Origin: Occultella gossypii
GTDB lineage: Bacteria > Actinomycetota > Actinomycetes > Actinomycetales > Beutenbergiaceae
Assembly: GCF_019947135.1 (NCBI RefSeq)
Contig: NZ_JAGSHT010000010.1
Location: forward strand, 434,001 to 498,000
Length of the DNA stretch: 64,000 bases
Direction of reading: 5' to 3'
The translations under genes and the position numbers were made by a program. The stretch's first letter is position 1. Each line of letters opens with the position of its first letter. Below the pieces are notes generated by a model that saw nothing but the letters and a program-made list of their open reading frames with translations, did no database searches and was not told where the DNA came from. This document shows positions 12,099-17,649 of this stretch, piece by piece.

Positions 12099-12782
12099 TC
12101 AGCTCGCGATCTTGAGCCGGTACCCGATGCCGCGCACGGACGCGACCTCCAGGCCCTCGGCCGAGAGCAGGCGCCGGCGTAGCCGCTTGACCGTCGAGAC
12201 CACCACGTCGGAGTCCCCCAGGTAGCCGGTCCGCCACACGTTCGCGGTCAGCTCGGCGAAGGACCAGACCCGGTCCGTCTCGGAGGCGAGCGCGGCGAGC
12301 AGGTCGAACTCCCGGATGGACAGGTGCACGCGGCGGCCGCGGATGGTGACCTCACGAGTAGCCAGGTTCACCTGGAGCGGTCCGCGGGTGAAGATCCGGG
12401 CCGCCCGACCGACCGCGCCGGGCCGCTCGGCCACATCTCGCCGGCCCGGCGGTCCGGCCGCTGCCCAGTCACCGACCGTGTGGCTGCCGGCTCCCTGGTC
12501 CGCGTTCGTCCGGTTGCCGGTTGCCGGGTCGGCGTTCGTCCGGCTGGTCGTCGCTCGCACCATGTCCCCGCCGTCGGGAGCGCTCCCACCTGCGGCGGCG
12601 CTCCCACCTGCGGCGGCGCCGTACCGGTCGTGGGCGAGCAGCTCCCTGGCCGCGTGCGTGTCGGCCGCGGCCACCACGACTGCGTGCGGCCCCACCAGCC
12701 GAGCAACCTCGCTGCACACCTCGAGCGGCACCCCGATGCACAGCACGTAATTGCGTTCGGTCTCAAGATCCCCAATAGACAC
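12099..12782 (-). CDS. Orphan OmpR/PhoB-type winged-helix transcriptional regulator
   Basis: A 227-residue cytosolic regulator. The C-terminal 100 residues are a clear OmpR-type effector domain: [20 protein letters not shown] (platform strands), [20 protein letters not shown], the recognition helix region [15 protein letters not shown], and the wing VRGIGYRL. The N-terminal 55 residues ([20 protein letters not shown]) look like the start of a receiver fold but lack a recognisable phospho-Asp and the rest of the domain. In between is a low-complexity linker with RTNAD and AAAGGSA repeats. No kinase gene is adjacent. GGAGG precedes the GTG at 12782; a TTGACC-N17-AAGGAT promoter lies at 12818-12846. 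The 11-bp-phased repeats at 12934-13026 between it and the subtilase gene are its likely target. Confidence 0.82.
12580..12615. repeat. 18-bp tandem repeat inside the regulator gene
   Basis: Two exact copies of an 18-base unit (12580-12597 and 12598-12615; unit begins GCGCTCCCACC) encode the AAAGGS repeats of the regulator linker. Slippage here would add or remove six residues without a frameshift. Confidence 0.7.
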
Positions 12783-12817
12783 CTGACTGCTACCTCCCCC
12801 GAGTGCGGTCTGCCGTG

Positions 12818-12846
12818 ATCCTTTCCAATTGCGCAGGTCAGGTCAA
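12818..12846 (-). promoter_or_regulatory. Predicted promoter of the winged-helix regulator gene
   Basis: On the minus strand TTGACC (12841-12846) and AAGGAT (12818-12823) are separated by 17 bases. The -35 box is close to consensus. The -35 element runs into CCTGA-like sequence, so the regulator could bind its own promoter. Confidence 0.45.
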
Positions 12847-12933
12847 GGGTTCGGCCGTTTCGGGCCCGCCCCCGCCCGGCGTGGCGCCTCCAACACACCG
12901 CCCGGCCGCCGGTTGAACAGCGATCGACGAGCA

Positions 12934-13026
12934 CCTGACCATCACCTGAACGTTGCCTGATCCCCACCTGACGACAGGGTGACGAGGGCCTGACCGTGAC
13001 CTGACCGCAACCTGACCGTGTTCTGG
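12934..13026 (+). promoter_or_regulatory. Array of 11-bp-phased CCTGA direct repeats
   Basis: CCTGA occurs at 12934, 12945, 12956, 12967, 12989, 13000 and 13011, each step 11 bp except one of 22 where the skipped slot (12978) still reads GGTGA. A degenerate unit follows at 13022, and TTGA sits in phase at 12912. The commonest 11-mer is ACCTGACCGTG. One-turn phased direct repeats are how OmpR/PhoB-type winged-helix proteins bind. The array lies between such a regulator and the subtilase gene. The remaining sequence of the 364-bp gap is the regulator promoter and a GATCCCC / GGGGATC hairpin at 13074-13094; no gene is seen. Confidence 0.75.
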
Positions 13027-13146
13027 CCGGGTGCCGTCCTTGTCCGGCTCCACCGTTCGCGGCAGCGTGGCGGGATCCCCTGATCCGGGGGATCACATAC
13101 GCGTACCCGAGCACCGCCCGGGCACGCGTCGTCATATGGAGGCACA

Positions 13147-16100
13147 GTGCGTACACCCCTGATGTTCGCCAGACGACTGGTGGTCGCCGCCTCTGCGGCA
13201 GCGGCGATGGTCGCGACGATGGCCGTCGCAATCATCCCCGCTGCCGCGGAGCCGACGACTCCGGCCGTCCCGGCCACAGCCGACGAGAAGTTCACGGAAG
13301 AGGCGATGTCGACATTGTCGGCAGCCGACTCCGCGGACTTCTGGATCCGCTTCGCCGACCGCGCAGACCTGAGCGCGGCCGCGGCGACCGCCGACTGGGA
13401 CGCCCGCGGCGTCGCCGTCCACGACGCCCTCGTCCAGACCGCCGAGGCCGCCCAGGCCGGCGTGGTCGCCGACCTCACCGCGGCCGGCGCCACCTTCGAG
13501 ACCCATTGGATCTCGAACGCGATCCTGGTCCAGGGCGGCTCCCTCGACCTGGCCCGCCAGGCCGCGTCCAGCAGCGAGGTCCTCGAGATCCGGCAGACCA
13601 CCACCTACCCGGCCGAGGAACCCGTCGCCGGGCTCACGGTCGAGACCTCCTCGATGGGCCGCAACGTCCTCGAATGGGGCGTCAGCGCCATCAACGCCGA
13701 TGACGTCTGGGCCGAGTACGGCGTGACCGGCGAAGGCATCACGGTCGCGAACATCGACTCCGGCGTCCAGGGAGACCACCCCGCACTCGCCGCGCACTAC
13801 CGCGGCCTCCAGCCCGACGGCACCGTGGTCGACGACTACAACTGGTTCGACGTCGCCGGCGCCTGTGACGGCTCCCCGTGTGACACCGACGGTCACGGCA
13901 CCCACACCATGGGCACGATGATCGGCAGCGACGGTGGCGCCAACCAGGTCGGCGTCGCCCCCGGCGCCGACTGGATCGCCGCGAACGGCTGCTCCACCTG
14001 CGCCGACGCCGACCTGATCGCCTCCGGCGAGTGGGTCATCGCGCCGACCGACTCCGCGGGTGAGAACGCCGACCCGACGAAGCGCCCGCACATCGTGAAC
14101 AACTCCTGGGGCTCACGGACCCCCTCGAACGACCCGTTCATGGAGGACGTCATCGCCGCGTGGGAGGCCGCCGGCATCTTCGGCACCTGGTCCAACGGCA
14201 ACAGCGGACCGTCCTGCTCCACGTCCGGGTCACCGGGCAGCCGGACCATCACCTACTCCGTCGGCGCGTTCGACATCAGCGGCGACATCGCGTCCTACTC
14301 CGCGCGCGGCCCCGGTCAGGACGGCGAGATCAAGCCGAACATCGCAGCCCCCGGCTCGAACGTGCGCTCGTCCCTGCCGGGCGACTCCTACGGCACCGGC
14401 TCGGGCACCTCGATGGCGGCCCCGCACCTGGCCGGAGCGATCGCCCTGCTGTGGAGCGCGGCACCGTCGCTGATCGGTGACATCGCCGGCACCCAGGCCC
14501 TTCTGAACGCCACGGCCGTGGACGTCGACGACACCACCTGCGGCGGCACCGCCGAGGACAACAACGTCTGGGGCGAGGGTCGTCTCGACGCCCTCGCGCT
14601 CGTGCAGGCGGCACCCACCGCCGAGGCGGGCACCCTCTCCGGCACGGTCACCGGCTCCGACGGCGGCCCGATCGCGGGTGCGACCGTCACCGTCACCGGT
14701 GAGAGCGAGCGGGTCCTGACCACCGACGAGGAGGGCGCCTTCACGGGCACCTTCGTCGCCGGGCCCTACACCGTGACCGCGACCGCGTTCGGGTACGCCC
14801 CGGCCACTGCCGACGTCACCGTCGTGGCCGAGGAGACGGTCGGCGTGGACCTGGTACTGGAGGCAGCGACGTCGTTCGCGGTCGCCGGGACCGTCACGAA
14901 CGAGGCCGACGGCGCACCCGTAGCAGGCGCGACCGTCGCCTTCACAGGTGCTCCGATCGAGCCGGTCACCACCGGCGCGGACGGCACCTACGCCGTCGCC
15001 GACGTGCCGGCCGGCACCTACACCGTCACCATCACCGGTGACCGGTGCAGCGCCCCGTTCTCGACCGAGATCGTGGTCGACGGTGACGAGACGCTCGATG
15101 CGGCGCTCGTCGGCCTCCAGGACGACTACGGGTACTTCTGCTCCGTGGGCACCGACGGCTACCGACAGGGCGACACCCCGCTCAGCCTGACCGGTGACGA
15201 CGCGGCCACGGCCGTGGAGCTGCCGTTCGCGTTCCCGTTCTACGGCGGCTCGTACTCCACGGCGTACGTGTCGACGAACGGGCACGTGAACTTCCTCGCC
15301 GCGGTCACCGCGTACTCCAACGCGGCGCTGCCGACCACGGCCGCACCGAACGCGGCCGTCTACGGGTTCTGGGACGACTTCACCTTCAACAATGGCGGCA
15401 CCGCCCACACGGCGAGCACCACCATCGACGGTGAGGACGCGTTCGTCATCGAGTACCGGGACGTCAGCCCGTTCTCGAGCACGGACACCGTGAGCTTCTC
15501 GATCACCCTGTTCGCCGGCGGCGACGTGGAGATCGGCTACGGCCCGGCCTCCAACGCGGAGAACCCGCGCCTGCTCGGCGACTCGGCCACGGTCGGCATC
15601 GAGAACGAGGCCGGCACGGTCGCGAGCCAGTACTCGTTCAACGAGGCCGTCCTGGCGACGGGCTCCTCGGTGCGGTACGAACTGCCGCCGAACGGCACCG
15701 TGTTCGGGAACGTGACGGACCTCAACGACGGCCTGGCCGTTGCTGGGGCGACGGTCACGGCCACCCCGGACGACGGCGGTGAGCCGCGGACGGTCACCAC
15801 CGACTTCGGCGGCGACTACAACCTGTTGCTGTTCTTCGGCGCCTACACCGTCGACATCGAGGCCCCGGGGTACACCACCCGCACGCGGGACGTCGTGATC
15901 GACGTGGACGGCGAGACCAACCGGTTCTCCCCGAAGCTGAAGACGGGCATCGCAACGGTTGCTCCGCCGTCGTACTCCTGGACCCTCACCGAGGGCCAGA
16001 CCCGCACGGCGGACCTGACCATCGCCAACACCGGCTCGGCACCGCTCACCTACACCATCGGTGAGCTCCCGCGGGCGGTCAACGAGGCGGCGGCCGTTCC

Positions 16101-17649
16101 GGCGCTGTCGACGGCGGCTGTGGACGCTGCCGTGGTGCCCGCGGGCAACACCTCGCTGGCGCAGGTCAACTCGGCCTTCGCCGAACTCGAGGAGGCGGCC
16201 GCACAGACGGACCCGAACGCCCGCACGGCGCTGGGTCTGTACTCCGACGACCAGCTCGACCAGCTGGCCGCACCGGTCACGCCGGACGCGGTCGGGGACA
16301 TCCTGGCCCAGTGGGACTCCAACCTTGCCGGGGTCGCCTGGGGCGTCGGGTACACCGGCGACGTGTGGATCTCCGACGCGGAACAGGTCGTCAACCAGCA
16401 GTACTCGACGGCCGGCGCACCGGGCAGCCAGTTCCCGGCGAACTGGGGCGGCACCTGGTCCGGCGACCTCGCGCAGGACTCCACGACCGGGGACCTGTGC
16501 CAGGTGAACGTCGGTGGGGACAACGGGATCCACTGCTTCGAGGAGGCGACGGGGGCGGCGACCACCACCCTCACCGGCTCGCCGTGGTCGTCCGTGTCCC
16601 AGCGCGGGCTGGCCTACAACGCGGCCGAGGACGTGTTCTACACCGGCGGTTGGAACGAGGGCATCATCTACACGGTGGCGGGCACCACGCACGCCACCCC
16701 GGGTGAGACCCTGGCCCAGTGCACGCCGGAGGACCCGTCCATCGCGGGCATCGCGTACAACCCCACCTCGAACACGATCTGGTACGTGAACAGCGCGCTG
16801 GTCACGTCGTTCTTCCAGATCTCGCCCGAGGACTGCTCGACGATCAGCACGGTCGCCTACCCGGTGGCCGGTGAAGGCCCGGGCTCCGGTCTGGACCTGG
16901 ACGCCACCGGCGCCCTCTGGACGGCGAACCAGCTGACCGGCGAGGTGTACCTCGTGGACGTCGGCGACCCGAACGTCACGGACGTGCCGTGGCTGACGGT
17001 CACCCCGGCCGAGGGCACCGTGCGGGCCGGTCGGTCCGCCACGCTGGACGTCACGGTGGACACCACGGGCCTGGCGCCCGGGGTGTACGGCGCGAACATC
17101 CTGGTGCAGACGAACGCCGGGCGGGTCTCGACGATCACGGTCCCGGTGACCCTGATCGTCTCCGCCTACCAGGTCGGGGTGAACGCCGGCGGCGGCGCCT
17201 ACACCGACGCCGGGGAGTTCGCCTGGTCCGCCGATCAGCCGCTCTCCGCGGGCGACTGGGGCTGGACCGGTCAGCGCACCGAGACCGAGGCAACCGACCT
17301 CGCGATCGGCGGGACCATGGAGGACACGCTGTTCCAGACCCGGCGCACCGGGATCTTCAGCTACGTGTTCACCGACGCACCGGCCGGGACGTACGCGATC
17401 GACCTCGGGTTCGCCGAGTTCGACGCGGACTACCCCGAGCGTGACCGTCTGTTCGACGTGCTCGTCAACGGCGAGTACGCGTTGGTCGCCGTGGACGTCG
17501 CGGAGGAGGCCGGCGGCCTGTGGGCCGACCAGCACACCGTGATCGTCGAGCACGAGGGCGGTGATCTGGAGGTCGAGCTGGCCAACCGGCGCAGCTACGA
17601 GTACCCGATCCTGAACACGCTGGCGGTCACCGAACGGGGTGATCTGTGA
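13147..17649 (+). CDS. Large secreted S8 subtilisin-like protease with carboxypeptidase-regulatory and malectin domains
   Basis: A 1500-residue exported serine protease. A signal peptide covers residues 1-34 (FARRLVVAASAAAAMVAT, cleavage near AAAEP). A propeptide-like region follows. The catalytic triad is Asp204 (NIDSGVQGDHP), His250 (DTDGHGTHTMG) and Ser422 (GTSMAAPHLAG), with oxyanion Asn352 in SNGNSGP. Downstream are two tandem carboxypeptidase-regulatory-like beta domains (about 495-655), a beta-rich region with FPFYGGSYSTAYVSTNGHVN, a third such domain (about 849-925), a propeller-like segment, and a C-terminal malectin-like carbohydrate-binding domain (about 1340-1498). There is no sorting signal. 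GGAGG precedes the GTG by four bases. The 11-bp-phased repeats upstream suggest tight control, probably by the neighbouring regulator. A role in extracellular glycoprotein or wall-protein breakdown is inference. Confidence 0.92.
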   Translation: MRTPLMFARRLVVAASAAAAMVATMAVAIIPAAAEPTTPAVPATADEKFTEEAMSTLSAADSADFWIRFADRADLSAAAATADWDARGVAVHDALVQTAEAAQAGVVADLTAAGATFETHWISNAILVQGGSLDLARQAASSSEVLEIRQTTTYPAEEPVAGLTVETSSMGRNVLEWGVSAINADDVWAEYGVTGEGITVANIDSGVQGDHPALAAHYRGLQPDGTVVDDYNWFDVAGACDGSPCDTDGHGTHTMGTMIGSDGGANQVGVAPGADWIAANGCSTCADADLIASGEWVIAPTDSAGENADPTKRPHIVNNSWGSRTPSNDPFMEDVIAAWEAAGIFGTWSNGNSGPSCSTSGSPGSRTITYSVGAFDISGDIASYSARGPGQDGEIKPNIAAPGSNVRSSLPGDSYGTGSGTSMAAPHLAGAIALLWSAAPSLIGDIAGTQALLNATAVDVDDTTCGGTAEDNNVWGEGRLDALALVQAAPTAEAGTLSGTVTGSDGGPIAGATVTVTGESERVLTTDEEGAFTGTFVAGPYTVTATAFGYAPATADVTVVAEETVGVDLVLEAATSFAVAGTVTNEADGAPVAGATVAFTGAPIEPVTTGADGTYAVADVPAGTYTVTITGDRCSAPFSTEIVVDGDETLDAALVGLQDDYGYFCSVGTDGYRQGDTPLSLTGDDAATAVELPFAFPFYGGSYSTAYVSTNGHVNFLAAVTAYSNAALPTTAAPNAAVYGFWDDFTFNNGGTAHTASTTIDGEDAFVIEYRDVSPFSSTDTVSFSITLFAGGDVEIGYGPASNAENPRLLGDSATVGIENEAGTVASQYSFNEAVLATGSSVRYELPPNGTVFGNVTDLNDGLAVAGATVTATPDDGGEPRTVTTDFGGDYNLLLFFGAYTVDIEAPGYTTRTRDVVIDVDGETNRFSPKLKTGIATVAPPSYSWTLTEGQTRTADLTIANTGSAPLTYTIGELPRAVNEAAAVPALSTAAVDAAVVPAGNTSLAQVNSAFAELEEAAAQTDPNARTALGLYSDDQLDQLAAPVTPDAVGDILAQWDSNLAGVAWGVGYTGDVWISDAEQVVNQQYSTAGAPGSQFPANWGGTWSGDLAQDSTTGDLCQVNVGGDNGIHCFEEATGAATTTLTGSPWSSVSQRGLAYNAAEDVFYTGGWNEGIIYTVAGTTHATPGETLAQCTPEDPSIAGIAYNPTSNTIWYVNSALVTSFFQISPEDCSTISTVAYPVAGEGPGSGLDLDATGALWTANQLTGEVYLVDVGDPNVTDVPWLTVTPAEGTVRAGRSATLDVTVDTTGLAPGVYGANILVQTNAGRVSTITVPVTLIVSAYQVGVNAGGGAYTDAGEFAWSADQPLSAGDWGWTGQRTETEATDLAIGGTMEDTLFQTRRTGIFSYVFTDAPAGTYAIDLGFAEFDADYPERDRLFDVLVNGEYALVAVDVAEEAGGLWADQHTVIVEHEGGDLEVELANRRSYEYPILNTLAVTERGDL

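Follow-up and report, generated by a model that had tools for sequence, protein, structure and literature searches.

An 11-bp-phased direct-repeat array, the probable operator of a kinase-less OmpR-type regulator, beside a secreted-protease gene of Occultella gossypii

In the stretch of the Occultella gossypii genome analyzed here (64,000 nucleotides of contig NZ_JAGSHT010000010.1; hereafter, the window, whose positions are used throughout), an array of direct repeats with a period of 11 bp separates two divergent genes, one for an OmpR-type winged-helix regulator and the other for an S8 (subtilisin-type) protease. Related bacteria with the same neighboring regulator gene retain the spacing of the repeats and, therefore, the array is very probably the site of this regulator. 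The reading we favor, and hold to be probable, is that the array is the operator of a divergent, kinase-less activator of the OmpR/PhoB type, with a short receiver-like N-terminus, that acts on the protease gene.

The array in its own genome and genus

The pentamer CCTGA occurs seven times in a single 11-bp phase, with starts at 12934, 12945, 12956, 12967, 12989, 13000 and 13011, exactly the positions and phasing given in an earlier note made from the letters of the window alone. Slots 12978 (GGTGACG) and 13022 (TCTGGCC), which that note had called degenerate, retain most of the core and, accordingly, are counted as units, so that nine consecutive units span 12934-13032, in agreement with the claim of at least eight units over about 90 bp. 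Slots 12912 and 12923 (GTTGAAC and ATCGACG, respectively) are weaker than these two. Two more copies of CCTGA nearby, at 12782 (the regulator start) and 13079, are both out of phase. Among 5000 dinucleotide-preserving shuffles of the region 12783-13146, the greatest number of same-phase copies was three, reached once, against the seven observed; the lag-11 self-similarity (z = 6.9) was reached by none of 1000 shuffles, and a scan of the 64-kb window for exact phased runs of at least three CTGA at periods of 8 to 15 returned this array only, at period 11 only.

The array is also unique in its genome (5.84 Mb). Four copies of CTGA at 11-bp steps, with up to two mismatches allowed, gave 10 matches, of which seven, including all six with zero or one mismatch, are at the array locus, and the three elsewhere have two mismatches each. 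Thus, the concern that many similar arrays might lie at random places is not borne out in this genome, and the shuffles together with the genome-wide scan rule out chance or scattered repeats. In a plasmid search, none of the 223 matching records spanned 80% of the query.

The same-genus relatives of the locus come from Occultella aeris and O. glacieicola. Two genomes of the genus, G001 and G002, contain further runs beyond the array locus. That of G001 is a CTGA run with one mismatch at C25:189664; that of G002 (C11; L056, reverse strand, about 2685-2721) is another exact run of four CTGA units in 11-bp steps, located at the 3' end of a presumably Nramp transporter-like frame and followed by a small frame that we take to be acetyltransferase-like. 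By eye, no TTG stands 18 bp from any unit start of this second run, and no counterpart of it was found in the O. gossypii genome at up to two mismatches. It may be an additional target in the species concerned.

The array faces the subtilase gene, as the earlier note had it, and is indeed intergenic; its placement between the two genes is, nevertheless, better described as abutting the putative -35 element of the protease promoter (Table 1). The -10 hexamer of this promoter appears poor and that of the regulator promoter, along with its -35, appears good. By eye, -10-related hexamers occur in relatives at 16-18 bp from the -35, and, on the regulator side, TTGAC and AAGGAT with a 17-18 bp spacer are present in all seven genomes of the window's own family; a looser test pattern for the regulator promoter had no match in any of the six other loci tested.

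Table 1. Features of the array locus, in window coordinates
Feature	Coordinates	Strand	Remarks
Regulator, 227 aa	12099..12782	-	OmpR-type winged helix at about 129-226; beta-alpha-beta-alpha N-terminus at 11-50; low-confidence linker at about 55-127
Putative regulator promoter, TTGACC-17-AAGGAT	12818..12846	-	contains TGACCTGACC on its own strand
Two weak in-phase slots, possible decayed units	12912..12933	+	GTTGAACAGCG, ATCGACGAGCA; from sequence only
11-bp direct-repeat array, nine consecutive units	12934..13032	+	unit roughly nYYGvCCnnnn; seven CCTGA and two degenerate slots
Putative -35 of protease promoter, TTGTCC	13040..13045	+	last unit starts 18 bp upstream; anchors by eye
Putative -10 of protease promoter, CAGCGT	13063..13068	+	17-bp spacer from the -35
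Stretch with inverted repeat TGATCCGGGGGATCA	13077..13096	+	at or just after the predicted protease transcription start
S8 (subtilisin-type) protease, 1500 aa, apparently secreted	13147..17649	+	three CarboxypepD_reg stretches and a Malectin domain; signal peptide by eye

Gene linkage, phase and register in relatives

In the family sample, the regulator (E ≤ 1e-25) and the protease (E ≤ 1e-60) are present in the same 7 of 24 genomes; in the order sample, the regulator was detected at E ≤ 1e-20 in 9 of 396 genomes, which adds G285 and G231, where, by eye, the divergent neighbor looks like a same-type S8 protease; and, in the class sample, all 15 of the 394 genomes with the regulator (E ≤ 1e-28) are among the 35 with the protease (E ≤ 1e-90). 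A broader profile (alignment A2, lowered threshold) matched generic OmpR proteins in 296 of the 394, and only its top-scoring groups were used; it set 17 genomes apart at 182-240 bits, and all 17 pairs are adjacent and divergent by coordinates. In G285, the pair lies (by eye) beside a dnaB-like gene instead of metG, so the linkage is not mere synteny.

We compared 24 loci from six family-level groups: f1, the window's own family (seven loci), f38 (twelve, from two genera, close kin), f53 (two), and f9, f17 and f58 (one each). The earlier note had suggested asking if the phasing is kept while the sequence drifts; it clearly is in f1 and, by a count anchored at the -35 TTG, also in G285 and f38. 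All seven f1 genomes show strong lag-11 similarity (z 4.4-7.6), that of G285 is suggestive (17 of 1000 shuffles) and, in f38, a 22-bp lag comes top in five of the twelve genomes. In 20 TTG-anchored loci, the half-site nYYGvCC occupies the expected 11-bp slots (-18, -29, -40 and so on) 52 times, versus 6 hits summed over the ten other phases; for the 13 anchored loci that are not in f1, the counts are 23 and 2. The slot at -18 from the TTG matches in 18 of the 20 loci, G001 and G285 being the misses. The four loci outside this count are G231, where the automatic anchor fell on a wrong TTG, and three without an automatic anchor. Counts of strict half-sites per locus are 3-5 for f1, four for G285 and 1-2 for f38; the long array thus characterizes the window's family. 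The units vary in their spacers but retain CTGnCC and, in G002, eight units with different letters follow one another in phase. As an observation apart, the best self-similarity lag is 10 bp, not 11, in G231 (L052 intergenic), G521, G467 and G576.

A composite model of the layout, trained on the seven f1 sequences, was scored against 828 background segments, taken from window sequence and from further loci in the genus, not from the genomes of the relatives tested. Its score was equalled or exceeded in no segment for G285, G231, G521, G548, G530, G467, G502 and G434, in one for G481, G573, G539 and G451, in 4 for G611 and 10 for G557, and in 65, 59 and 347 for G623, G485 and G576, respectively; 13 of the 17 non-training loci were also put to a shuffle test. 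The upstream regions of most protease relatives without a linked regulator did not score with this model. An anchor-free pattern, CTGNCC-n5-CTGNCC-n11-TTG, has one exact match apiece in 6 of 12 genomes, always at the pair locus; among these genomes is G485, of f53, in whose intergenic region 1e-5 matches would be expected.

Several observations weigh against this picture and the reading built on it. Outside f1, lag-11 similarity is weak (z -0.0 to 2.7). The TTG anchors were picked by eye, twelve of the twenty anchored loci are close kin, and G231, G623, G485 and G576 fit the layout by eye only, with the composite model giving, respectively, 0, 29, 70 and 271 of 1000 shuffles. The best match of the model lies away from the by-eye TTG in G539, G285 and G623, in the last case one unit off the by-eye reading. 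Of the 13 controls, chosen as having no linked regulator, G401 and G595 scored 3 and 4 of 300 shuffles, although G595 has a regulator of the linked group about 1 kb away and so is not regulator-free. Control G455 read on its reverse strand, a coding stretch, gave a score of 22.4, higher than that of any non-training locus. The pattern match in G485 was not blind, the region having been read before the pattern was written; when one mismatch is allowed, the reversed control outnumbers the pattern in most genomes and, consequently, only exact matches carry weight. Furthermore, 18 of the 35 protease-positive genomes of the class lack a regulator of the top-scoring group, the second CTGA run of G002 lies about 140 bp before another frame and on the same strand as that frame, and the regulator may repress the protease instead of activating it.

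The regulator and its probable action on the protease

The regulator belongs with the OmpR/PhoB winged-helix regulators by its DNA-binding domain: its single Pfam match is Trans_reg_C, ending 4 residues short of the C-terminus. Structure models built from alignments of 7 and 11 sequences (mean pLDDT, the predicted local distance difference test, of 67.2 and 73.4) agree on the N-terminal elements, the low-confidence linker and the winged helix. By the order of its elements, the N-terminus of these models would resemble the first half of a receiver. No Response_reg match was obtained in the whole protein at E ≤ 0.001, four N-termini matched no Pfam family, Response_reg included, at E ≤ 10, and a receiver domain with a phospho-acceptor aspartate, the mark of two-component membership, was not found. 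A fold comparison was filled by the winged helix, for which the DNA-binding domains of GlnR, PrrA, SaeR and PhoB match about equally (GlnR is ranked top but tied); it has no separate row for the N-terminus, residues 1-55 being barely covered, and so tells nothing of the novelty of that part. A cysteine at residue 15, within the first N-terminal-domain strand, is shared by 10 of the 11 regulators aligned and is a possible input site. The earlier note had described the regulator as lacking a kinase, and none of the six neighboring genes tested, within 8-21 kb, encodes a kinase domain: these are a G5/SLT protein, TatD, methionyl-tRNA synthetase, a glucose/sorbosone dehydrogenase, a RibD_C protein and a pterin-binding enzyme.

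Under the favored reading, protomers would bind head to tail, one per 11-bp unit and on one face of the DNA, with the promoter-proximal unit (13022-13032) fixed 18 bp upstream of the -35 TTG, such that the bound regulator could touch RNA polymerase, through sigma region 4 and/or the C-terminal domain of the alpha subunit, and activate the protease gene. Support for this reading comes from the position of the array, which precedes the putative -35 and is in register with it, from the poor-looking -10 and the good-looking promoter of the regulator, and from the fold matches of its winged helix. Given the seemingly good promoter of the regulator and its lack of a recognized phosphorylation domain, the level of the regulator, or a ligand or partner of its short N-terminal domain, would be the input. 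The extra units in f1 would steepen the response via cooperative loading, although the nine need not all be occupied; cooperative filament formation on the array, proposed in the earlier note, is plausible. A bolder version is conceivable but doubtful: that these proteins form an undescribed class of kinase-less regulators, each with a minimal receiver-like head on a disordered linker, that load head to tail as a cooperative filament of up to nine protomers on the operator of a secreted protease, with the length of the operator tuned by evolution at a fixed -35 register and the number of repeats setting the steepness of the switch.

Three other explanations have to be weighed against the operator reading. 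A different OmpR-family regulator with its gene at another place in the genome (PhoP-, GlnR- or MtrA-like) could occupy the array, the neighbor being linked for other reasons. Other OmpR-type proteins are indeed encoded in the genome, judging from its 11 matches to the regulator at E ≤ 0.001, itself included; PhoP, GlnR and AfsR use 11-nt repeats; and G564, whose protease relative yielded no linked regulator, contains a CTCAC array of its own at 11-bp steps. We consider this explanation unlikely, however, given that a global regulator would have many boxes whereas this array is the only one in its genome, that the upstream regions of most protease relatives without a linked regulator do not score, and that CTGNCC differs from the GTTCACC of PhoP and the GTnAC/GnAAC of GlnR.

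The array might, instead, serve the regulator's own repression or activation, the protease being a bystander, an option made thinkable by the intergenic region that both genes share, by the presence of TGACCTGACC in the putative regulator promoter, and by the converging pairs of the same motif in G485. With the start of the array 88 bp from the putative -35 of the regulator, and with a register that is common relative to the -35 of the protease, autoregulation seems quite improbable. A passive, functionless tandem repeat grown by slippage, finally, would account for the copy number within the genus, but can hardly be reconciled with phase and register kept among genera with diverged letters, with spacers that vary between units while CTGnCC is kept, or with the eight in-phase units of G002, and we give it very little credence.

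If the operator reading holds, a regulator group that spans six family-level groups within a single class (actinomycetes, to judge from the named relatives) gains at once a likely target, a motif and a promoter geometry. The loci also make up a natural series of operators with different unit numbers at the same register, in which the relation of repeat number to cooperativity in OmpR-type activation is testable, as is the control of a regulator without a recognized phosphorylation domain; a secreted protease as the target offers an easy readout, a halo on casein or skim milk.

Known systems and other 11-bp arrays

The principle presumably at work here is already known from tandem boxes of the PhoB/PhoP/GlnR type, from which the locus differs in its motif, its regulator, the single array in the genome and, in f1, the array length; the 'possibly new circuit' of the earlier note is, then, a fair description of the gene pair and less so of the principle. 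Judged by titles and the starts of abstracts, the open-access literature yielded nothing that describes the regulator-protease pair or such a regulator. In pho boxes (E. coli PhoB, 1gxp; Streptomyces PHO boxes), OmpR-type winged helices bind tandem 11-nt direct repeats head to tail (PMC4415409), and several PhoP protomers can load, as in the six-protomer activation complex of M. tuberculosis PhoP (PDB 9ji5). The array shares the 11-nt tandem repeats but its units are CTGNCC, not CTGTCAT or the GTTCACC of the Streptomyces consensus (PMC4415409), and there is one such array in the genome rather than a regulon, no kinase among the six neighbors and no Pfam receiver domain in the regulator. Its length, which the earlier note had called greater than usual, is unusual in f1 but only relatively so, considering the six-protomer PhoP complex and the variable repeat numbers of BldC (PMC5859096).

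GlnR of actinomycetes is, likewise, an orphan OmpR-type regulator; four of its DNA-binding domains sit head to tail on a-b-a-b half-sites, with a 22-nt box of two 11-nt repeats (8hih, 8hig; PMC10704036). Unlike the regulator described here, it has a tetramerizing receiver domain and a global nitrogen regulon, and the CTGNCC units do not fit its GTnAC-n6-GnAAC box. The OmpR-type DNA-binding domain of SARP/AfsR proteins binds two 11-bp direct repeats (PMC10936776), but the afs box, at -40 to -19, overlaps the -35, whereas the last unit of the array ends 7 bp before the putative -35; nor did Pfam show a bacterial transcriptional activation (BTA) domain after the winged helix of the regulator. BldC loads head to tail on variable numbers of direct repeats and forms an extended filament in the crystal (PMC5859096), but with a MerR-like fold on 9-bp repeats, rather than an OmpR-type domain at an 11-bp period. 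By the features tested, the array and regulator are not those of GlnR, PhoP, SARP or BldC. RitR, ChxR and HP1043, OmpR-type regulators with aspartate-less or otherwise atypical receivers, act without phosphorylation (PMC3960148, PMC4395418); unlike the present regulator, with about 40 structured residues before a low-confidence linker, they retain the receiver fold.

Second copies of the system occur in f38. In five of its genomes (G539, G573, G557, G611 and G434), a second regulator of the linked group lies near a protease paralogue; G595 has only the second-copy kind of regulator, and the fetched stretches of the second sets of G521 and G451 contain no protease. A presumably TrmB-like frame (286-291 aa) stands between the array and the regulator in G434 and G539, oriented like the regulator (L130-L137 are the f38 second sets). 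Perfect in-phase units number three before the protease paralogue in G434 and four in G451; no run of three such units occurs at any of the six remaining second-copy loci, with near-fits readable in G539 and G595. Window background amounting to 126.9 kb over both strands contained no period-11 run of three.

Downstream of the protease promoter, the inverted repeat TGATCCGGGGGATCA is possibly a second operator or a 5' hairpin, and CCCTCACCTGGGG-like stretches are present at a similar place in G004, G011 and G012. The CTCAC array of G564 (L090, about 1387-1420), with four copies at 11-bp steps just upstream of the protease relative, has the same period and a different motif. Between the regulator and protease genes of G485 (L097, about 1256-1290), two GTCAGG and two CTGACC are found, 11 bp apart within each pair and with the pairs pointing toward each other; each of the pairs may serve one promoter.
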